DNA from: Peptococcaceae bacterium
GTDB taxonomy: Bacteria > Bacillota > Desulfitobacteriia > Desulfitobacteriales > Syntrophobotulaceae
Direction: 5' to 3'
Assembly: GCA_012839895.1 (NCBI GenBank)
Contig: DUML01000081.1
Coordinates: 1-47,138, forward strand
Length of the DNA: 47,138 nucleotides
This document shows positions 155 to 46,851 of the stretch, one piece after another. A program made the translations under genes and the position numbers. How positions within the stretch are numbered: position 1 is the stretch's first letter; each line of letters begins with the position of its first letter. The notes under the pieces are model-generated. The model had not been told where the DNA came from and did not search any database. It saw nothing but the letters and a program-made list of their open reading frames with translations.

Positions 155-1741
155 TTAATTAAAAGGGTTGGGGGTACTGTCAATAATCAGTCCCTCCGTC
201 CCGATCACTAAGGAAGCAATGGAAAGTGCGTTTCTTAACGCCGTATACGTTACCTGCACTGGGTCAACAATCCCTGCTTCCAGCATGTCAACGTATGTAT
301 CCTCAGCTGCATTAAACCCCCAATTTCTTGGCAATTTTCTTACCTTTTCAATAACAACATCCCCATTATGCCCTGCATTAGTGACAATCTGGCGAAGCGG
401 TTCTTCTAAAGCCTCCTTTATTATCCGCAAGCCCACTTCTGCTTCGGGTTCCTTCATCTTTACTTCAGCTAAAGACTCACAAGCTCTTATCAAGGCAATA
501 CCGCCACCATGAACTATTCCTTCTTTGATAGCAGCCTGAACAGCGTTAACAGCATCTTCTATTCTGTCTTTTTTTTCCTTTAATTCAAGTACTGTTGGAG
601 CCCCAACTTTAATAAAAGCTACTCGCCCTTGTAGCCATCCCAATCTTTCCTTAAGCTTATCTTTCCTCCAACCAGGCTTAAGGGAATTATATTCCTTCCT
701 TACTTTTTCCAAGCGCATAGCAATTTTTTGGGGGTCACCTAACCCCCCGATAATAGTAGTCGTGTTATTATTGACTACTATTTTCATCGCTTGACCCAAA
801 TGTTCTTCCTTAACTTCTTCCAATTTAAGCCCAGCTGACTCGGCAACTACAGTTGCCCCAGTTATAATCGCAATATCCTGTAAATATTCCTCCCGCCTTT
901 CCCCATGGCCTGGGGTTTGCACAGCCACGACATTCATCGTACCTCTTTTTTTGTTCAGAAGTAAAAGCGCAAGTATATCCACAGAAATATCCTCGGCAAT
1001 GATTACAAGAGGCTTTTTATATTTTACTGCAACCTCTACTATTTCAAAAATTTCGTAAATATAACTAATCTTACAATTTGTTACCAAAATATATGGGTTT
1101 TCTAAAACTTCCGTTTGATTATCCTTAGGACTGACTACTTTTGGGGCAAAACGCCCTTTATCAAAACGGATTCCATTAATAACTTGAAATTCTGTATTCT
1201 GGGTTCTACCTTCTTCGACTTGAATAATGCCATTAAAGCCAACCTCTTTTACCACCTCGGCGATTAATAGTCCTATATTTCGGTCTCCTGCCGCAACAGT
1301 TGCTACCTTAGCTACATCATTAATATCTGATATCTTTATAGCACTATCCATTAAAGCTTGGACAACCACTTCTACCCCTTTTTCCATCCCTTTTACAAGA
1401 AGTGTAGGGTTAGCACCGGCAGCAATATTTTTCATCCCTTTTTGGATCATTGCTTGCGCCAGTATAATCGCAGTAGTTGTCCCATCGCCAACTCTATCAT
1501 TTGTTTTATCTGCTACTTCTTTAATTATTTCACATCCCAGGTTTTGAAACCGATTTTCCACAGTGATTACTTTAGCTATACTTACCCCATCATTAGTAAT
1601 TCTGGGCCTTCCAATATATGGATCCAATACTACATTCCTACCCTTTGGACCTAATGTTACTTTAACACATGACGCAATAATATTTATTCCTTCGGCAAGT
1701 GCGATTCTTGCTTGATGGCCAGAGAGCATTCTAGTCTGCAT
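155..1741 (-). CDS. cprD: GroEL-type chaperonin of the cpr cluster (CprD-like)
   Basis: A 528-residue GroEL/Hsp60 homologue, last gene of the dehalogenase cluster; the role in folding dehalogenase components is inferred from CprD of Desulfitobacterium. The ATPase residues of GroEL are present: the Asp52 equivalent in ITNDG, the Asp87 equivalent in the VGDGTTT phosphate-binding motif, and the Asp398 equivalent in RIEDAV. The apical domain keeps the hydrophobic helix pattern that contacts GroES and substrate (KKPLVIIAED). The C terminus lacks the usual Gly-Gly-Met tail. No groES lies in the window, so it would need the housekeeping co-chaperonin or none. The ATG start follows GAGGGG at a spacing of about 9 bases. 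A 147-bp gap separates it from cprC. Confidence 0.88.
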   Translation of the reverse strand: MQTRMLSGHQARIALAEGINIIASCVKVTLGPKGRNVVLDPYIGRPRITNDGVSIAKVITVENRFQNLGCEIIKEVADKTNDRVGDGTTTAIILAQAMIQKGMKNIAAGANPTLLVKGMEKGVEVVVQALMDSAIKISDINDVAKVATVAAGDRNIGLLIAEVVKEVGFNGIIQVEEGRTQNTEFQVINGIRFDKGRFAPKVVSPKDNQTEVLENPYILVTNCKISYIYEIFEIVEVAVKYKKPLVIIAEDISVDILALLLLNKKRGTMNVVAVQTPGHGERREEYLQDIAIITGATVVAESAGLKLEEVKEEHLGQAMKIVVNNNTTTIIGGLGDPQKIAMRLEKVRKEYNSLKPGWRKDKLKERLGWLQGRVAFIKVGAPTVLELKEKKDRIEDAVNAVQAAIKEGIVHGGGIALIRACESLAEVKMKEPEAEVGLRIIKEALEEPLRQIVTNAGHNGDVVIEKVRKLPRNWGFNAAEDTYVDMLEAGIVDPVQVTYTALRNALSIASLVIGTEGLIIDSTPNPFN

Positions 1742-1888: not shown

Positions 1889-3070
1889 TTATTTTGCATT
1901 ATTCACATCCACCGACCTATTTGATATTGAAGAAGTACGCGAAAATATACTTTTGATTTTACGGGTCAAACCTGCTACTTTGTCAAGGAATGTCCCTACT
2001 GGGCAAAAAGCAAAACACCAAAAACGACGATAAAAAAAGCTGGCGAGTAAGATTATAAAAAGCAAATACCATTGATAACTAGAGCCGTTTAACCCAAACA
2101 TAGTACCAAATGGTTCGAAGCTTGATACGGAAGGGTTAAGGGATATAAAAGCCAAAAACAGAACTATGAATAGTAAAATTTCTTTAACCAAGCGAAACCA
2201 CTTCAAGTATTTTCCCATAGGTAAATTAATTCTGCTAATTTTATGAGTTATTTCCTGCAAACCACAAAACGGACATACATAATTACAATATATATTTTTG
2301 CCGGTGAACAGGATAGGACCTATAACACCTATCAGCACTATATACCAAATAAGATTATCGCCTGGTGAAGGCAAATATCCTAAAAATAAGGCGCTAATTT
2401 GAGCCATTGAAATAGATCTATTTAGCCAAAAACCCAATATTAAAATACTTATTATCAAAAACTGGAACCTAAACCTGGATAATTGCTTGAATCTAGGCAT
2501 AAAAACAGAAAGTACAAAAAGTAAAGAAATAATTATTTCTTGCATGCCTATATTCCATTTTACTTCTGCTTTCTTTGGTGTAACCTTTAAGTCTTCCAAT
2601 GCAACTACGTGAGCTACATCTTGGACACTAAGAGCTATTGCCCGAGTGGATAAAGTCGCACCTGACACACCTTCAATATCATAATCAAAACTCAAAGCAT
2701 CTCCTGCTTGTTTATTGGCGAACTGACGGAAAAAACCGGCTTTAATAATCTTATTAATATAAGAAGGAGTCTCTTTGTGTTCTAAAATAATAACATCTGT
2801 CACAGCTCCACTTGTAGACAAAACTGTACCCACTAAAATTGGCCCGCCATAACCAACATGACTGCTGATTCCAAGATAAGCCAAAACGTCACCATCTGCA
2901 CCCACTGCTTTAGCTATCCGATCGTTTATCGGTTCAAATTTGTCTGCACTAGGGAGCATTTGACGGTAATATTTCTGGACGGTATTGGCATCAAATTTAC
3001 TGGCATAATGCCCATATCCATACGCTAGAACAAGAACTATAATTGCTATTAGAGGCAAGAATTTCTTCAT
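1889..3070 (-). CDS. cprC: NosR/NirI-like flavo-iron-sulfur membrane protein (CprC/RdhC-like)
   Basis: A 393-residue membrane protein of the RdhC type. It has an N-terminal membrane segment (about residues 5-20), an exported FMN-binding domain ending in the SGATLST motif (about 136-142) whose threonine carries covalent FMN in this family, then about five membrane helices. Two polyferredoxin-like cysteine clusters follow: Cys262, Cys266 and Cys269 in a CxxxCPFC motif, and Cys352 and Cys356 in CxxxCP. CprC was first annotated as a regulator from its similarity to NosR; an electron-transfer role from menaquinol to the exported dehalogenase, or a maturation role, is proposed for the family. It lies about 105 bp downstream of cprA behind a strong hairpin. 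The Shine-Dalgarno is weak (AGAAGG). Confidence 0.87.
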   Translation of the reverse strand: MKKFLPLIAIIVLVLAYGYGHYASKFDANTVQKYYRQMLPSADKFEPINDRIAKAVGADGDVLAYLGISSHVGYGGPILVGTVLSTSGAVTDVIILEHKETPSYINKIIKAGFFRQFANKQAGDALSFDYDIEGVSGATLSTRAIALSVQDVAHVVALEDLKVTPKKAEVKWNIGMQEIIISLLFVLSVFMPRFKQLSRFRFQFLIISILILGFWLNRSISMAQISALFLGYLPSPGDNLIWYIVLIGVIGPILFTGKNIYCNYVCPFCGLQEITHKISRINLPMGKYLKWFRLVKEILLFIVLFLAFISLNPSVSSFEPFGTMFGLNGSSYQWYLLFIILLASFFYRRFWCFAFCPVGTFLDKVAGLTRKIKSIFSRTSSISNRSVDVNNAK

Positions 3071-3175: not shown

Positions 3176-4510
3176 TTAATACAATTCAGGCCATTCCAGC
3201 CACCATTTATATTTTTCAATAGTTTCCGTACCATATCCGAACATGTCATCAATGGATTTGAGAAGTTGTGAACTCATTTCTCCTCTGCTACCAATCCAGG
3301 TCCCAGCTAGATGGAACCAGGAATCTTCTTTGGAGTTCCAAGGACAAACTTTCATACACCTTCCACAGGAAGAGCCTTCTTTATTGGTTGTGCGGAAAAC
3401 TGCGCATTTCCTAAAATCAGAATTCCAACGCAGATAACCATTGTATTCAACATAATCGTCATCAAATGATATTGCTCCTGCCGGACAGTTTTCTGCACAT
3501 TTCCGACATACCCTACAAAAATCCTGTAAACCAAAATCAATTGGTTTATCAGGCACAAGTGGAAGATCCGTTGTCACAGCAGCAACTTTATGCCGGAATC
3601 CTAGACGGGGATGGATTGTACTGTCTCCTGTACGGGAAAGTTCCCCTAGCCCTGCCGCAATAATTACTGGTGGCATGACTGCTGCATAATTTCTGGCATG
3701 ATGTGCCCTGGCATTGTATCCAAGGTTTCTGATGTACTGAGCAAGGATAGTGGCGATATTTCCGGTAGCGTGATAACCACGGAAAGACTGAGCACTACTA
3801 ATGCCATCATAACCGGTAGAAGCAAGAGTTGTCTCCAAATGCTGATCGACCATTACAACAATTACATACGGCAATCTCTCTTCAACAGGAACAGTCCAAG
3901 ATTCAACAGGCAATGATGCCATTAAATCCCTTCCGACCGTAGCTCTATGTGAGTAGTAGGCGTAAGGAGGCATTTTCCCGATACCGACCTCATCTGCCCG
4001 CAGGAAGTAGGCAACATCTTTAATGTGCTTAGACATTTGCTCCGGATCAGGAATTGGCAGTTTTTTCTCCGCGGGTTTACCTTCTACGGCACTATCTGGA
4101 GCAATGGCTGAAAGAACTTTACTTAATGCTGCAGAAAGAGGATATTTACTCACAAACCTAAGTACTTCCTTCTGCGCTTCTTCTCCAAGTAACCCTCTTG
4201 CCGCTAGGTTAAAGCCCATATCGGCTTCACTTACATTTTTTATCTTACCTACTATTCTTGTCGTTCCCAACCATTCATCATTATGCTCTACATAACGCAC
4301 CGCAGCCCCTGAGTAGTCAGGATTGGGATGAAGCTTCGACCATTGTCCCTTCTCTCCCGGAACATAGTTAAGGGTCTCATTTGCTGCATTTGCTACCTTT
4401 GTAGATGCTTTTAAAGCTCCCATTACACCCATTGCTGTTGCGGCTGCGCCAACTTTCAAAAAACCTCTGCGATTAATTTTATATGTCTGCTTTTGTTCTT
4501 TATTATCCAT
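3176..4510 (-). CDS. cprA: Reductive dehalogenase catalytic subunit, CprA-like
   Basis: The terminal reductase of organohalide respiration, removing halogen from an organic acceptor on the outer face of the membrane; cobamide and two [4Fe-4S] clusters are the family cofactors. The 444 residues begin with a Tat signal (Arg14-Arg15 in NRRGFLK) and a hydrophobic stretch ending near ANA-A at about residue 42. Cluster motifs are Cys332, Cys335, Cys338, Cys342 (CxxCxxCxxxCP) and Cys369 with Cys382, Cys385, Cys389 (CxxCxxxCPW). The C terminus ([11 protein letters not shown]) and much of the body closely resemble, from memory, the ortho-chlorophenol dehalogenase CprA of Desulfitobacterium, so an ortho-chlorinated phenol is the likely substrate. 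As in other RdhA there is no DxHxxG cobalamin motif. The start follows AGGGGGGTG; cprB ends 17 bp upstream. Confidence 0.95.
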
Positions 4511-4527: not shown

Positions 4528-4839
4528 TTATAACTGTGATGTAGCTGAATCACTTACTTTTTTAACTTTAATAAATCCTAATAATCTAGCTAAAATAAAC
4601 CCAAGAACAACAGATATTCCTAAGAATAAAAAGATTGCAGTACTTGTAGCCTTGACATGACCAACTGAGGCATTAATATAGATAAAAGAAATCCCCATCC
4701 ATGTAATGGCATACCATACTACAAACAAAACCCAGTTGAGAACTGTCTTCCAAATTTCTTTCTGCTTTGCCCGAGGTTTAATAAAAAAAATTGCAGCCAT
4801 GAATAACATGCCCGCCAAGAAAACTAAAAAAGTACCCAT
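4528..4839 (-). CDS. cprB: Reductive dehalogenase membrane anchor, CprB-like
   Basis: A 103-residue integral membrane protein with three hydrophobic helices (about residues 2-20, 34-53 and 66-90), the size and topology of RdhB anchors that hold the exported RdhA on the outer face of the membrane. The loop between helices 2 and 3 carries a conserved-looking ASVGHVKAT segment. It is translated from an ideal AAGGAGGTG ribosome binding site, directly upstream of cprA and in the same transcript. This B-before-A order is the Desulfitobacterium and Dehalobacter cpr arrangement; in pce and Dehalococcoides loci A precedes B. The promoter with dehalobox lies about 50-100 bp upstream. Confidence 0.92.
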
Positions 4840-4962: not shown

Positions 4963-6558
4963 TCACTCTCTATTATCACCTTTACGAGATTTATTACCTA
5001 CCGACCCTTCCACAGTAAAAAGAAGCGAAGCAATTCCCATCGCATTCCTTAAAGCAGTTATAGTCACTTTAGCTGGATCGACTATTCCTACATTGATCAT
5101 GTCTACGAAAATTCCGGCCACTGCATCATACCCGGTATTTTTATCATGCTTCTTTAGAAGTTCAACAATGTTTTTGCCGTTGCCACCGGCGTTATTAACG
5201 ATTTGTATTAATGGTGCTTCTAATGCCTGCTTTATTAGGCGAATCCCAGCCATCTCGTACCAATTGTCTGTTTTAATTTTATCCAAAGCCTGAGCAGCCC
5301 TTATAAAGGCTGTTCCTCCTCCTGGGACAATCCCCTTTTCAATTGCTGCCTTGGAAGCCTTGACCCCTTTGATTACTCTGTCTTTTAATTCCTTTAAAGC
5401 CATATCTGTATCAGCACCCACTTGGATAACTGCAATTCCACCAGAAAGTAATGTCAAACGTTTTAAAAGTCTATCCCTATCTTCAGTTTGGGATGTCTGA
5501 CTAATAAGGGTTTTTACCTTCCTTATTTGTTTGTCAATGTTTTGACGACTTCCATCGCCACCGAGAATTGTAGTTTTATGGCGTGTAACAATAACCTTTT
5601 CCGCCTTCCCTAGCATGGCTTTTTCAATATTTCCAAGTGACATGCCTAATTCTTTCGTAATAAATGTTCCATTTGTAACTAGAGCCAAATCTTCCAGAAG
5701 ACCTTGACGGAAATCTCCAAACCCTGGAGCCTTGACAGCAACAACTTTTCCAGTTTCAGCAGTATTATATGAGAATAATACCCCTAAAACATCTTTTTTG
5801 ATATTTGGCGTTATAATAAGAAGCGCCTTTTTCTCCCAGGAACACCAACTTAAAACACGCTTGACATCAGATGTTTCATTCAGAACATGATCTGTAATAA
5901 GAATATAGGGACTCTCAAGACTGATATCCATTCCTTCAGAGGCAAAATACGGAGACATATAGCCGTTATCCAATTCTAGGCCTTGGGATATTTCAATACT
6001 AGTACTTCGCTCTGTTGATTCCTGTACGAAAACTGTACCGTCTTTACCAATTTTATTAAAAGCCTTAGCAATTAATTCGCCAATATAAGTATTTTTCGAA
6101 GAGATAGCTGCCACTTGAAATACCCCATCTGGTATCGTTACAGGAATGCTTAAATTTTCGATTTCTTCTATAGCAGTATTTACTGCTTTTTCAATGCCTT
6201 TTCTGAGTTGAATGGGATTTAAACCTGCTTCGATAAGAGGAAGACTTCCATTTATTATTGCCTGAGCAAGCACAATTGAAGTAGTCGTTCCATCGCCAAC
6301 CAATTCATTAGTCCTCATGGCAACTTCCCGGCATAGCTTTGCTCCTAGATCTTCTTGCAGGTTAGTAAGTTTTATGTATTTGGCGACTGTTGCTCCATCT
6401 TTTGTTATTAATGGATAACCCAGTGCTCTCTCAATTACTATATTTTTGCCGCAAGGACCAATGGTTGGTTTAACCATATCGGCAACTTGATTAAATCCAG
6501 AAATCAATGCATTACGTGCTTTAACATCATTAAGGAAAGTACTTGTTTGGAAGTTCAT
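4963..6558 (-). CDS. cprE: GroEL-type chaperonin of the cpr cluster (CprE-like), catalytic Asp replaced
   Basis: A 531-residue GroEL homologue, paralogous to the chaperonin at 155-1741 but divergent. The Asp52 equivalent (ITKDG) and the Asp87 equivalent in VGDGTTT are present. At the position of GroEL Asp398, where GroEL has RVEDAL, this protein has RVIKGV, putting lysine in place of the aspartate needed for ATP hydrolysis; the codon is AAA at 5368-5370. The apical domain also departs from GroEL, with a tryptophan/cysteine-rich segment (LSWCSWEKK) where the GroES-binding helices lie. The C terminus is charged and has no GGM tail. The ATG overlaps the cprZ stop by 4 bp (ATGA), so the two are translationally coupled. 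The role in dehalogenase folding is inferred from the cluster. Confidence 0.88.
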   Translation of the reverse strand: MNFQTSTFLNDVKARNALISGFNQVADMVKPTIGPCGKNIVIERALGYPLITKDGATVAKYIKLTNLQEDLGAKLCREVAMRTNELVGDGTTTSIVLAQAIINGSLPLIEAGLNPIQLRKGIEKAVNTAIEEIENLSIPVTIPDGVFQVAAISSKNTYIGELIAKAFNKIGKDGTVFVQESTERSTSIEISQGLELDNGYMSPYFASEGMDISLESPYILITDHVLNETSDVKRVLSWCSWEKKALLIITPNIKKDVLGVLFSYNTAETGKVVAVKAPGFGDFRQGLLEDLALVTNGTFITKELGMSLGNIEKAMLGKAEKVIVTRHKTTILGGDGSRQNIDKQIRKVKTLISQTSQTEDRDRLLKRLTLLSGGIAVIQVGADTDMALKELKDRVIKGVKASKAAIEKGIVPGGGTAFIRAAQALDKIKTDNWYEMAGIRLIKQALEAPLIQIVNNAGGNGKNIVELLKKHDKNTGYDAVAGIFVDMINVGIVDPAKVTITALRNAMGIASLLFTVEGSVGNKSRKGDNRE

Positions 6559-6968
6559 TGTCTTATCTCCATAACAACTCCGTCTTTTAATATTATTTCC
6601 GCTTTAACGGCTGAATCTAGATTATCTCCGACTTTGAGTTCATAAGGCCCTTCGATGGACCCGATAACAGCCTCCTCACCAATTTTTAAATCATCTATCT
6701 CAGCCAGACAAGTTCTAATCTCATCCTGCCTTCTATGATAATCGCTTGCCTCGGAATCAAACTTTTTACGAATCTGCTCGAGTTGAAATTCATCAGCGCC
6801 TTTAAGAGCAAATTCAGTAATCATTTTATTTTTTTTTTCCTCTAATTCCCTTTGTTTATTATATATAGCCAGTAACTCGTCCTCCAGTTGTCGACGGGTA
6901 ACCTCTTTAGCCTTTTCAGTAATAATTTGTTTAATAGTTATTTCTCTGAAAATAGTAATTGACCTCAA
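6555..6968 (-). CDS. cprZ: YlqD-like coiled-coil protein (CprZ position)
   Basis: A 137-residue soluble protein. Residues about 15-95 are charged and helical, with Lys/Glu/Gln-rich stretches typical of a coiled coil; the last 40 residues form a compact region ending in ILKDGVVMEIR. This layout and the ending match what I remember of the YlqD family (PF11068), of unknown function in Firmicutes; the match is from memory. Position between cprK and cprE equals cprZ of Desulfitobacterium. The start is TTG: no ATG occurs until residue 49, and GGAGG lies 7 bases before the TTG. It overlaps cprE by 4 bp, suggesting it works with that chaperonin. Function unknown. Confidence 0.75.
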   Translation of the reverse strand: MRSITIFREITIKQIITEKAKEVTRRQLEDELLAIYNKQRELEEKKNKMITEFALKGADEFQLEQIRKKFDSEASDYHRRQDEIRTCLAEIDDLKIGEEAVIGSIEGPYELKVGDNLDSAVKAEIILKDGVVMEIRQ

Positions 6969-7092: not shown

Positions 7093-7794
7093 TTAATAAT
7101 AGGTAGATTGTTCGGAAAGTAATTTAAGTTTTTCTAGATCATAGACTATTATCTTATCTTTATTCTTATTAAGGATTTTCTCTTTCTTAAGACAATTTAA
7201 AACCCTGGAGACAGTTACATAATGAGCCCCGGTTATTTCTGCAATGTTGGCTTGTGACAATTTAATAACTATCTCATGAGCATTTTCCAATTGCTTTCCA
7301 TGTAAAACACAAAGTCTATAAATTAATCTCAGTATTCTAATTGTTGGATTATAAGAATTTATCTCGGCAACTTGTCTCATAAAGTAGCTTGCTTTGGCAA
7401 GATAATTCTTCAAAATGTCAAATGGCATTTCTTCATTGTCCCGAAAGATTTCTTTTAGGTTATCTTTGGTGAATCTACATATCGTGCTATTCTCAATAGC
7501 AACAGCATGAATATTATCCTCAGTAGGGAACAATCTTCCTAACAAACAGTTCTTACCAGCAAAATAAAGTAACACTTCTCTTCCATCATCACTTATTAAA
7601 TTAATTCTTATTCTACCCTCTAGTACAATTATTAAAGCGTTGGTAGGCTCACCGGGAATAATAACAGAACTATTCTTTGCATAATTTTTTACAGTACCTA
7701 AATGTACATATTGCCTTAAACTATCAACTGGATAGAATGAATCAGGAATGACTACTCCACAATTATCCATTTTTCTCCTATAGGACATAGTCAT
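7093..7794 (-). CDS. cprK: CprK-like halophenol-sensing Crp/Fnr-family activator
   Basis: Transcriptional activator of the cpr genes, 233 residues from the ATG at 7794. This start is chosen because GGAGG lies 5-6 bases before it and the length matches CprK (232). An upstream ATG at 7818 has no such site. The N-terminal half is a cyclic-nucleotide-type beta barrel, the C-terminal part a Crp helix-turn-helix (ITGAHYVTVSRVL). Aligned with CprK at a constant offset of one, the ligand residues are all kept: Tyr77, Tyr131 and Lys134 for CprK Tyr76, Tyr130 and Lys133, which bind the ortho-chlorophenolate. Cys12, Cys106, Cys162 and Cys201 match Cys11, Cys105, Cys161 and Cys200; Cys11 and Cys200 form the redox disulfide in CprK. 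Confidence 0.93.
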   Translation of the reverse strand: MTMSYRRKMDNCGVVIPDSFYPVDSLRQYVHLGTVKNYAKNSSVIIPGEPTNALIIVLEGRIRINLISDDGREVLLYFAGKNCLLGRLFPTEDNIHAVAIENSTICRFTKDNLKEIFRDNEEMPFDILKNYLAKASYFMRQVAEINSYNPTIRILRLIYRLCVLHGKQLENAHEIVIKLSQANIAEITGAHYVTVSRVLNCLKKEKILNKNKDKIIVYDLEKLKLLSEQSTYY

Positions 7795-7988
7795 TTTTAC
7801 CTCCTCAAACCATCGCAACTTTTTTATTCCTAAATAGAAGGCATCAGATAAGAATAAAATTGTTAAACATAATCTATGTTAAATATAGTACAATTAATTT
7901 GTCACCCCCTCGAAAAATTAATCAGGGGATAATTGATTTCCACCCCATTAGACCAAGGGTTAAATTTCTATGAATAAAGAGTGCTTTA

Positions 7989-8020: not shown

Positions 8021-8034
8021 TTAATGCATATTAA
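8021..8034. promoter_or_regulatory. Consensus dehalobox
   Basis: TTAATGCATATTAA matches the TTAAT-N4-ATTAA consensus of CprK operators in all ten half-site positions. The only downstream -10 at a suitable distance on the minus strand is TACACT at 7993-7998, giving a start near 7986 and a leader of about 190 bases before cprK. No good -10 is found at that distance on the plus strand. Confidence 0.72.
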
Positions 8035-8235
8035 AACTTAAAATCCTAGGGTTTTTAAAACTGCTTTTCCTCTCCTATCGGGATATTTTGTCGTAAAAAC
8101 ACATCAATCAAACCATAGCTCTTAGGTAATCTAGATTTTAATCTTGCAGGTAAAATGAAATTCAAATGGAATATAATATAGATAATTATGGAAAAAGCTA
8201 ATTCCAATAGTTTGGAAAGAAAGAGGGAGCCAAAA

Positions 8236-8868
8236 ATGAATGATTCCTTTCGCCTCACACAAATAGCGACCGTTGTTTATCTGATTACCAAAGTCAAACA
8301 ATTATCAAATTATATTCATTTTTTTAAGCAAGGAATTAATGAAAACCTGGAAATACCTATGGATTTTGCTTCCTATGTAAATAATTACGGGGAACGGGAG
8401 GCTCAAAAAGCCTTAGATAAAGCAGTTGCCAGGCTGCTGGACAGTACGGATAAAAAATCCCAAATATCTGTAGGCGATTACTTACTTAATATACCCAAAG
8501 TGCATACTTTTCTGGCTGAGGTCACAACTCTTGATGATCTGGTTAAAAGCCTTGATAAATACCTTCAAGCTTATCCCAGAAAACAAAAAAAATTAGTTGA
8601 ATACCATGAGCCAAAGAAAATAGGTGTTTTTTGCCCCTTTACAGAACTTCCTTTATATGAAGCTGAAGCCTTTATTAATAAATTCCACGAAGTCCTTAAT
8701 CAGCCCCCGGAACTTCCCTTCGTTGTCACTCCCGATAATTTAAACAGAGAACTTAAAATCCTCTTTAACAATAAAGAAACTGCCGAAGAATACGCCCGTA
8801 AGCTCTGTCCTTCCGAGCTTTGGCAAAGGCTTAAGGACGGTTCCTTAGAAAAAATCGGCAGTTATTAA
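8236..8868 (+). CDS. Hypothetical protein, unrecognised
   Basis: A 210-residue soluble protein; I do not recognise the family. The start at 8236 is chosen over an in-frame ATG at 8188 because AGGGAG lies 6 bases before it. The N-terminal third is helical with hydrophobic spacing (TQIATVVYLITKV); the middle is charged; the C-terminal half contains a Cys-Pro-Phe segment (GVFCPFTELPLYEAEAF). No signal peptide or membrane segment. It is the only plus-strand gene in the first 39 kb, divergent from cprK and convergent with addA. A TATAAT at 8172-8177 may be its -10. It sits where a dehalogenase chaperone such as the trigger-factor-like CprT might be expected but does not look like a trigger factor. 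Expression in step with cprK is possible but unproven. Confidence 0.7.
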   Translation: MNDSFRLTQIATVVYLITKVKQLSNYIHFFKQGINENLEIPMDFASYVNNYGEREAQKALDKAVARLLDSTDKKSQISVGDYLLNIPKVHTFLAEVTTLDDLVKSLDKYLQAYPRKQKKLVEYHEPKKIGVFCPFTELPLYEAEAFINKFHEVLNQPPELPFVVTPDNLNRELKILFNNKETAEEYARKLCPSELWQRLKDGSLEKIGSY

Positions 8869-44292: not shown

Positions 44293-46851
44293 CTATTTAA
44301 GTTGCTGCTTATTATGGAAAAACCCCTGCCATGGGTCCTGCATGCCGATCCTCCGCAAGGCTTCTGCCATATCGATACCGTCTGGAGAGACCTTCTCCAG
44401 TTCATCCCAGGCGATGGGCATGGATACCTTGGCTCCTTCTCTCGCTCTAAGAGAATAGGGAGCAATACTGGTAGCTCCCCGGCCGTTGCGAATCCAGTCA
44501 ATGAAAATCTTACCTGCCCGCTTAGCCTTGCGAACATTGCTGGTATAACGATCCGGCCACTTCTGCTCCATCACCTTGGCCACGCCCTTGGCAAAATCAT
44601 AAAATAAGTCCCAGGAAACTGCTGGCTGTAAAGGGACGAGCACATGGTAGCCTTTGCCGCCGCTGGTCTTGAGATAAGAGTTCAGCCCCAGTTCGTCCAG
44701 GATGCTTTTCAAATCCCGTACCCCCTGGCGCACCCTGTTTAAATCCATTCCCTCGTCCGGATCCAAGTCAAAGACCATTAGGTCCGGTTTTTCCAATTCA
44801 TCTACCCGGCTGCCCCAAATATGAAATTCCAGGGTACCCATTTGGGCTTCATTGATTAAACCGGCTGTATTCTCAATATAAAAGTATTCCTCTGTTTCAC
44901 CGTCACTGCCGGCAACAGAGACGGTGACCACCTCTTTGCTGCCCGGACCGGGATGCTTCTTATAGAAACAGGCTTGGGAAATACCTTTAGGACAGCGGAC
45001 AATGCTGAGAACCCTGCGGCTCAAATACGGCAGCATACGTTCTGCCACTTGGGCGTAATAACGGACAACATCCCCTTTAGTGATTCCTGATTGAGCAAAG
45101 ATTACCTTGTCCGGGTTGCTGATTATAATTCCTTCGATAACCAAGTCCTTGTCCTTCATGGTTTTCCTCCCTTCTTCAATAGGCAATACTTTCCGGCTCT
45201 CCCCATTCTCTTTTTCACCGGGTAATGACCTCTGACTCTCCCTTTTCTCTTCTTCACTAGGTAATGATTTCCGGTTCTCTCCCCCCGCTTCTTCCTTGCA
45301 GATATCCTTTGGGTTTTTATCTGTCCGCAAGCCTTGGAAGCTGGCCTGCCGCAACAAATTGTCACCCGTCCATTCGGCAAATTTAACTTCCGCTACCAGT
45401 TCAGGTTGAAGCCAGATAATCTTCTCTTTTACCCTGGGTTTGGGTGGGACTTTAAAAGGAGACTCCCCTCGCTTAAGGGGTTCGAATTTTTCCGCAAGCT
45501 CTTTCCTTAAGACATCGCTGAAGCCGGTGCCGGTTCTCCCGGCATAGACCAGGTCTTCTCCCTCATAGAAGCCAAGGAGCAGGGAACTTATCCCGCTTAT
45601 CCTCTGGGCGGAAATAGTATAACCTCCGATAACAAGTTCCTGCCTGTTCCCGCATTTTATTTTGATCCAATCGCCGTTTCTTGTTCCGCTGTAGACAGAA
45701 TCGGCTTTTTTACCGACAATCCCTTCCATGCCTGCTGCACAAGCCGCAGCGAGACTTTCCTTTCCTTTCCCTCTGACATGCCGGCTGTAGTAGAGGATTG
45801 GAGGGGCACCTTGGAGCAAAGCCATGAGCTTCTCTTTCCTGTCCAGCAGCTGATGTCCTCGAAGATCCTCTCCGTCCAGTGCCAGCAAATCAAAGATAAT
45901 ATAGGTAAGGTTACCTTCCCCTGTTTTTTTCAAATATTTTTGTAAAGCCTGAAAATCTGTCTTGCCCCTTTGGTCTGTGACGACCATTTCTCCGTCTAAG
46001 ACCATAGCCCTGCTTCCGGCCCAAGTACGTAAAGCTTCGGCGGCAGTCCGGAAACGGTGGGTATAATCCTGGCCGTTTCGGGAGAGAAACCGGACAGTGC
46101 CCCCTTCAATATAGGCCAGGATCCTGTAGCCGTCATATTTCAATTCAAAAAGCCACTCTTCTCCATCTGGAACGGTGTCCGCCAATTTGGCCAACTGCAC
46201 CCCGGTACTGCTGAAGGGGTTCTTCATGATCTTTTCCTCTTCTCCTGCTTCAATCTCCGCCATGGTGCGCCCCGTCCTAATGCTGGTGGTATACCCGGAA
46301 ATTCCGTCGTCTGCCTTAGCGTACTCGTCTTTCTCCTTGAGCAGCAGCCAGTTATCTTTCTTATCACCATCTTTGCCTTGCAATCGTACCAAAGCCCACT
46401 TGCCTTTTAGTCTCTGGCCTCTGAGAGTAAACTTAAGCATCCCTTCCCGTAGTCCGTCCTCTACATCACCGTAAGGTTCCCAATATCCTTCGTCCCAGAG
46501 CATAACCACCCCGCCGCCATATTCACCTTGGGGGATCGTTCCCTCAAAGTTCCTATACTCCAAAGGATGATCCTCCACCCGGACGGCAAGCCGCTTATCC
46601 CGGGTATTATAAGAAGGTCCTTTGGGTACAGCCCAACTTAAAAGAGCTCCGTCCCATTCCAGGCGAAAATCAAAGTGGTCTCTGCGAGCCAGATGGTACT
46701 GGACGACAAACCTTAGATCTTTTTCGCCAGAATCTCCTTGTCCAGAATCTTCTTGATCAGAATCCCCTTCTCCTGTTTTCACTTTGCCTTCCGGTTCCAA
46801 TGTCTTGGCAAAATTCCTTTTGCGGTTGTATTCGGACAGTTTGTCAGTCAT
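44293..46851 (-). CDS. ligD: Multifunctional DNA ligase D (phosphoesterase-ligase-polymerase)
   Basis: An 852-residue bacterial NHEJ enzyme that trims, fills and seals double-strand breaks. Order is phosphoesterase (about residues 45-175, QYHLARRDHFDFRLEWDG), ATP-dependent ligase (about 215-520; catalytic Lys238 in ELKYDGYR), linker and AEP-type polymerase (about 575-845; DLDPDEG with metal-binding acids, GGKGYHVLVPL, WPDRYTSN). The phosphoesterase-ligase-polymerase order differs from the polymerase-first order of Mycobacterium. The linker (about 525-575) has three imperfect repeats of an ESRKxLP unit. The N terminus has an acidic Gly/Ser/Asp stretch. No ku gene is in the window, but it may lie to the right. 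Confidence 0.95.
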   Translation of the reverse strand: MTDKLSEYNRKRNFAKTLEPEGKVKTGEGDSDQEDSGQGDSGEKDLRFVVQYHLARRDHFDFRLEWDGALLSWAVPKGPSYNTRDKRLAVRVEDHPLEYRNFEGTIPQGEYGGGVVMLWDEGYWEPYGDVEDGLREGMLKFTLRGQRLKGKWALVRLQGKDGDKKDNWLLLKEKDEYAKADDGISGYTTSIRTGRTMAEIEAGEEEKIMKNPFSSTGVQLAKLADTVPDGEEWLFELKYDGYRILAYIEGGTVRFLSRNGQDYTHRFRTAAEALRTWAGSRAMVLDGEMVVTDQRGKTDFQALQKYLKKTGEGNLTYIIFDLLALDGEDLRGHQLLDRKEKLMALLQGAPPILYYSRHVRGKGKESLAAACAAGMEGIVGKKADSVYSGTRNGDWIKIKCGNRQELVIGGYTISAQRISGISSLLLGFYEGEDLVYAGRTGTGFSDVLRKELAEKFEPLKRGESPFKVPPKPRVKEKIIWLQPELVAEVKFAEWTGDNLLRQASFQGLRTDKNPKDICKEEAGGENRKSLPSEEEKRESQRSLPGEKENGESRKVLPIEEGRKTMKDKDLVIEGIIISNPDKVIFAQSGITKGDVVRYYAQVAERMLPYLSRRVLSIVRCPKGISQACFYKKHPGPGSKEVVTVSVAGSDGETEEYFYIENTAGLINEAQMGTLEFHIWGSRVDELEKPDLMVFDLDPDEGMDLNRVRQGVRDLKSILDELGLNSYLKTSGGKGYHVLVPLQPAVSWDLFYDFAKGVAKVMEQKWPDRYTSNVRKAKRAGKIFIDWIRNGRGATSIAPYSLRAREGAKVSMPIAWDELEKVSPDGIDMAEALRRIGMQDPWQGFFHNKQQLK

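Follow-up and report, generated by a model that had tools for sequence, protein, structure and literature searches.

Lysine at the catalytic Asp398 position of a CprE-like chaperonin in a reductive dehalogenase gene cluster, and natural CprE-CprD fusions in related genomes

The analysed window, a stretch of 47,138 nucleotides, carries a reductive dehalogenase gene cluster lying entirely on the minus strand. It comprises a CprD-like GroEL-family chaperonin of 528 aa in which D52, D87 and D398 are kept (155..1741); a CprC-like membrane protein with an FMN-binding domain (1889..3070; PF04205, PF12801); the catalytic subunit of a reductive dehalogenase (RdhA/CprA-like, 3176..4510), which has a Tat signal (TAT_signal) and matched the full TIGR02486 profile above its cut-off; a CprB-like membrane anchor (4528..4839), 72% identical to the CprB-position protein of the related genome G032; an intact CprE-like GroEL-family chaperonin of 531 aa (4963..6558; PF00118, 4e-62), 48-63% identical to its orthologues; a YlqD family protein in the cprZ position (6555..6968; PF11068), which occupies the equivalent place in other cpr clusters; and a CprK-like CRP/FNR regulator (7093..7818; PF00027 and PF13545), 55% identical to the CprK-position protein of G032. 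The resulting order, K-Z-E-B-A-C-D on one strand, matches the cluster encoding CprE/RdhE and CprD/RdhD in Desulfitobacterium, published as cprTKZEBACD (PMC3975901). In the window the YlqD frame shares 4 nt with that of cprE; cprZE, cprBA and cprCD of D. dehalogenans form bicistronic transcripts strongly regulated by chlorinated substrate (PMC8905343). An exact dehalobox-like palindrome, TTAATGCATATTAA (8021..8034, plus strand), was found upstream of cprK, in the intergenic region shared with a 226-aa ORF that runs divergently from cprK (8188-8868, plus strand) and for which Pfam and NCBIfam gave no match; the two exact palindrome matches in the window compare with 0.45 expected by chance, which is weak evidence. 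The proteins RdhD and RdhE have been described merely as predicted molecular chaperones (PMC3306737). The genome has one ordinary groES-groEL operon, located on a different contig, and its only GroES (C53:5477-5752) adjoins the housekeeping groEL, so that CprE and CprD are additional paralogues that have no dedicated groES.

The window CprE belongs to the group I chaperonins (GroEL/Cpn60 fold family), with a full-length Cpn60_TCP1 match of 210.9 bits (Pfam cut-off 34.3; profile positions 1-483 of 490). Against the GroEL equivalog model TIGR02348 (cut-off 582.1), CprD scored above the threshold with 618.3 bits and CprE below it with 529.4 bits; CprE is thus a divergent GroEL paralogue and not a GroEL equivalog. 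It departs from GroEL proper in having Lys at position 398, with D52 and D87 kept, and in lacking an adjoining groES. The chlamydial GroEL2 and GroEL3 are also divergent extra paralogues, but the window protein scored only 156 and 204 bits against their models, far below the cut-off of 600. In the tree it was sister to the CprE of G032 (support 99/98) and grouped neither with CprD nor with housekeeping GroEL; identity to the G032 pair was 63% for CprE and 70% for CprD. The position of the gene between cprZ and cprB, near rdhA and with cprD downstream, fits the CprE of cpr/rdh clusters.

The window CprE was aligned with E. coli GroEL, the housekeeping GroEL of the same genome, seven other CprE orthologues and CprD. 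As originally predicted for the segment 5340-5400, RVIKGV (residues 394-399 of the ORF) stands where GroEL has RVEDAL, and Lys397, encoded by AAA at 5368-5370 (minus strand), aligns with GroEL Asp398. There was no gap around this residue against any of the references, so no shifted acidic residue substitutes for Asp398. The paralogous CprD keeps RIEDAV, also as predicted. The rest of the nucleotide pocket of the window CprE is intact, with T30, G32, P33, T50, D52 (in ITKDG), G53, D87 (in GDGTTT), G88, T89-T91, G414-G416, A480, I493 and D495 all kept. An alternative assignment of D52 to the Asp following VVL ('VVLD') was rejected, since this residue corresponds to D41 in E. coli numbering. That the codon reflects an assembly or consensus error is considered very improbable. 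The genome is indeed in 132 contigs, but orthologues have GAT or GAC followed by GCN, whereas the window has AAA followed by GGG (A399G), a difference of at least three bases in two adjacent codons from every orthologue with the frame kept. Turning GAT into AAA alone takes two or more substitutions, and with the neighbouring codon altered as well a single miscalled base would not be sufficient.

In GroEL, D52 and D398 hold the attacking water (PMC10723157), and the laboratory mutant D398A has an ATPase activity of about 2% of wild-type and slowed substrate release (PMC3813556). The window CprE likewise lacks the Asp that acts with D52 (PMC10723157, PMC3813556), but the change is natural, the residue is Lys and not Ala, D52 is kept and an intact paralogue is encoded in the same cluster. 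By analogy with this mutant, hydrolysis by the window CprE would be poor. It is also conceivable, though improbable, that hydrolysis persists despite Lys398 and that CprE is an ordinary ATPase, with the water positioned by the retained Asp52 or by Asp394, one helical turn before the Lys; GroEL D398A is slow yet not dead (PMC3813556). However, almost every CprE and CprD with Asp398 has Asp394 too, so the latter was not acquired as a replacement, and a Lys in the water site would be expected to be worse than an Ala.

The distribution of Asp398 was surveyed across 74 genomes of the order. A clear CprE orthologue was found in seven other genomes, together with three further, more divergent CprE-type proteins. 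Asp398 was present in all ten, as well as in 13 CprD-type or similar proteins and 27 GroELs. The adjacent substitution E397I, giving RVID, is common to nearly all CprE orthologues, as a shared trait and not as a published definition of CprE; the window CprE keeps this Ile and has Lys in place of the Asp. Since the ten other CprE-type proteins keep Asp398, D398K arose on the window lineage alone, a case of one genome with no second strain of its genus in the set. D398K as a general CprE feature was therefore rejected: the suggestion that the CprE family as a whole is hydrolysis-impaired did not hold, the homologue alignment proposed as its check gave an acidic residue in 10 of 10 others where a consistently non-acidic one had been envisaged, and cpr chaperonins cannot in general work through impaired hydrolysis. 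A search of genome contigs with the single CprE protein gave no match, while the CprE alignment recovered three CprE relatives, apparently among the genomes already counted; a plasmid search returned only GroELs of less than 60% identity. One CprE-type protein, in G004 (L043:6280-7896), has the phosphate loop GDGTSS instead of GDGTTT.

Further substitutions distinguish the window CprE. Apart from Lys398, it differs from other CprE proteins by Trp434 and Ile452 at ring-ring contact positions (E434W, R452I), and radical changes occur at other conserved places (G103S, G297N, A399G). All four positions altered in the single-ring mutant SR-1 depart from GroEL (I452, N461, K463, N464), so single rings may also be possible for this protein. 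The predicted alteration of the GroES-contact region was confirmed in part: L234K/R, P235R, A260G and N265Y/H/R are changed family-wide in CprE and V263F in the window CprE only, while Y199, Y203, F204, L237 and L259 are kept. In CprD, the GroES-contact changes lie elsewhere (Y203K/R, F204V/I/M). An AlphaFold model of CprE built from seven sequences was of low quality (pLDDT 61) and was set aside.

The main rival to a functional reading of D398K is relaxed selection, by which CprE would matter less in this lineage and the Lys would be one damaging change on the way to loss, with no division of labour; we regard it as unlikely, yet as deserving serious weight. It is favoured by the long branch of the window CprE (0.56, against 0.29 for its sister), by the radical and ring-contact changes listed above, and by a unique G375R in the intermediate/apical hinge of CprD in the same cluster (155-1741, minus strand; LQGRVAF versus LQGGVA). 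Moreover, the window CprE is changed at 4 of 70 otherwise invariant positions, 20 of which belong to the ATP site, and by simple counting the chance of at least one ATP-site change among the four is about 0.74, so that a chance hit on the ATP site is likely. On the other hand, four changes at invariant positions are no more than in the CprE of G008 or the CprD of G031, and all other pocket residues are kept. Relative-rate tests were significant with one of six outgroups, and accelerated evolution was not accepted as robust. The pN/pS ratio against the nearest orthologue was 0.31 for cprE, comparable figures being 0.28 for rdhA and 0.23 for cprD. With this ratio and an intact frame of 531 codons, a pseudogene was rejected; cprE is under purifying selection and not obviously decaying.

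In the tree CprE and CprD fall into two separate clades, which show the same branching at nodes with good support in each. No CprE was recovered without a CprD from a cpr-type cluster: in ten pairs both genes lie on the same contig, and one pair, in G008, is split over two short contigs that both carry cpr genes. The two proteins are thus co-inherited, and in none of the pairs is Asp398 missing from both partners. In G004, which belongs to the genus of the fused forms described below, the E and D genes are 13 nt apart in the same order as in the fusions. A second, very divergent pair of E/D type was observed as adjacent genes near another rdhA in G002 and G017 (L042:6369-9679, L048:4431-7773); its E-type member keeps Asp398 and has Gly399 as in the window CprE. 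The gap between the paired genes in G002, G017 and G004 is 13-115 nt.

Outside the window, natural fusions of the two proteins were found in related genomes. In two metagenome bins a single long minus-strand ORF replaces the E and D genes; G022 has one such ORF, of 876 aa, and G013 has two, of 877 and 869 aa, at L044:6120-8750, L045:589-3222 and L052:6183-8792, and the end of a fourth fused ORF lies at a contig edge in G018 (L053:5736-6716, minus strand, partial). These complete or partial clusters carry YlqD, and also CprC, RdhA and CprB where the contig permits. BLAST and the tree identified the N half as a CprE-like chaperonin without an apical domain and the C half as a complete CprD-like chaperonin. 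For G022 and the G013 fusion on C166, the best CprE row for the first about 340 residues scored 122-124 bits, against 95-96 for housekeeping GroEL and at most 90 for CprD, and the C half was closest to CprD (332-334 bits). In the N halves of these two, GroEL positions near 190 run straight into positions near 375, with 9-12 of 186 apical positions filled; the third N half has 33 filled and also lacks part of the equatorial domain. In a tree of equatorial and intermediate positions, CprE was joined by the N halves and CprD by the C halves; the branches are very long (2.1-2.4), so the support values overstate how certain the exact placement is. A structural model of the G022 N half (pLDDT 94) superposed on GroEL 10-521 over 332 residues (Z about 41, rmsd 2.2-2.6) with the apical domain skipped. 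Because GroEL-family fragments were in the model's alignment, this marks the half as compatible with the chaperonin fold and is not independent proof.

D52, D87 and D398 are kept in all three fusion N halves, whereas residue 398 of the C halves is Lys in G022, Ala in G013 C166 and in G018, and Asp in G013 C182; the C half of G013 C166 additionally has D52S. An ordinary GroEL is encoded elsewhere in G022, G018 and G004. The catalytic Asp has thus gone missing from the window CprE and, among the fusions, from three of the four CprD-like halves, but never on both sides of a pair; the counts are too small for a test, and the fused cases share ancestry. Of these results, the fusions with their apical-less N halves are more surprising than the D398K of the window.

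These observations suggest the following mechanism. CprE and CprD would make up, as dissimilar subunits, a group I chaperonin dedicated to maturing the adjacent reductive dehalogenase, working together most likely within one ring. The window CprE would bind ATP in its intact pocket, hydrolyse it poorly and stay in an ATP-like state, while CprD subunits would supply the hydrolysis that cycles the ring. If the two act as one complex, the hydrolysis of one partner suffices and the other can drop it. This two-component chaperonin with a shared ring, in which CprE without Asp398 relies on CprD, is given slightly less than an even chance of being right. The original prediction placed an active and a hydrolysis-impaired GroEL side by side; at this locus one partner does have the catalytic Asp and the other does not, and it is the extension to the CprE family that had to be dropped. 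The mixed rings it proposed gain independent support from the strict co-inheritance and the natural fusions, though a shared ring, and the dehalogenase as its client, are what we infer. A seven-membered ring is not buildable from covalent pairs alone, and the fusion therefore gives no ring geometry.

The second option of the prediction, in which CprE would assemble into separate rings that cycle slowly or not at all and hold the dehalogenase until cofactors are inserted, with CprD as a distinct active chaperonin, is consistent with the slowed release of unfolded protein by GroEL D398A (PMC3813556) and with the departure of all four SR-1 positions. It is nevertheless held to be distinctly improbable, because the orthologues keep D398, so the family's job needs no slow hydrolysis, and because the fusions argue for joint action of CprE and CprD. 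Extending the shared-ring reading, CprE/CprD may be an obligate two-subunit chaperonin dedicated to one enzyme class, either partner of which may lose hydrolysis if the other keeps it, and which in one genus would have culminated in one polypeptide combining an apical-less ATPase half with a substrate-handling half without the catalytic Asp. This broader view is put forward tentatively and with some doubt.

Mixed rings of unlike paralogous subunits with unequal ATP use are known from chloroplast Cpn60 alpha/beta, a plastid system. The eukaryotic CCT/TRiC also combines unlike paralogous subunits that use ATP unequally, and with one catalytically dead subunit type it is partly active in a subunit-dependent manner (PMC5413064); by analogy, a mixed CprE/CprD ring, as inferred here, might tolerate some hydrolysis-dead subunits. 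In the literature searched, no description was found of a dedicated bacterial chaperonin pair in which the catalytic Asp has been lost naturally, nor in the open literature a paper on cprD and cprE with GroEL or on apical-less chaperonins, though subscription papers may exist. Most work on how mixed chaperonin rings exploit unequal ATP use concerns the eukaryotic CCT with its eight subunits, and a two-gene bacterial pair with one partner lacking the catalytic Asp, or fused minus one apical domain, would be a far simpler system. Why dehalogenase clusters carry two GroEL paralogues, so far unexplained, would thereby become a testable question.

Two further observations were made. An archaeal-like chaperonin in G028 (L050:3661-5220) scored higher with thermosome models (294 bits) than with GroEL models (182 bits), and the window encodes a multi-domain DNA ligase D with ligase, 3'-phosphoesterase and primase-polymerase domains (44293-46851, minus strand).
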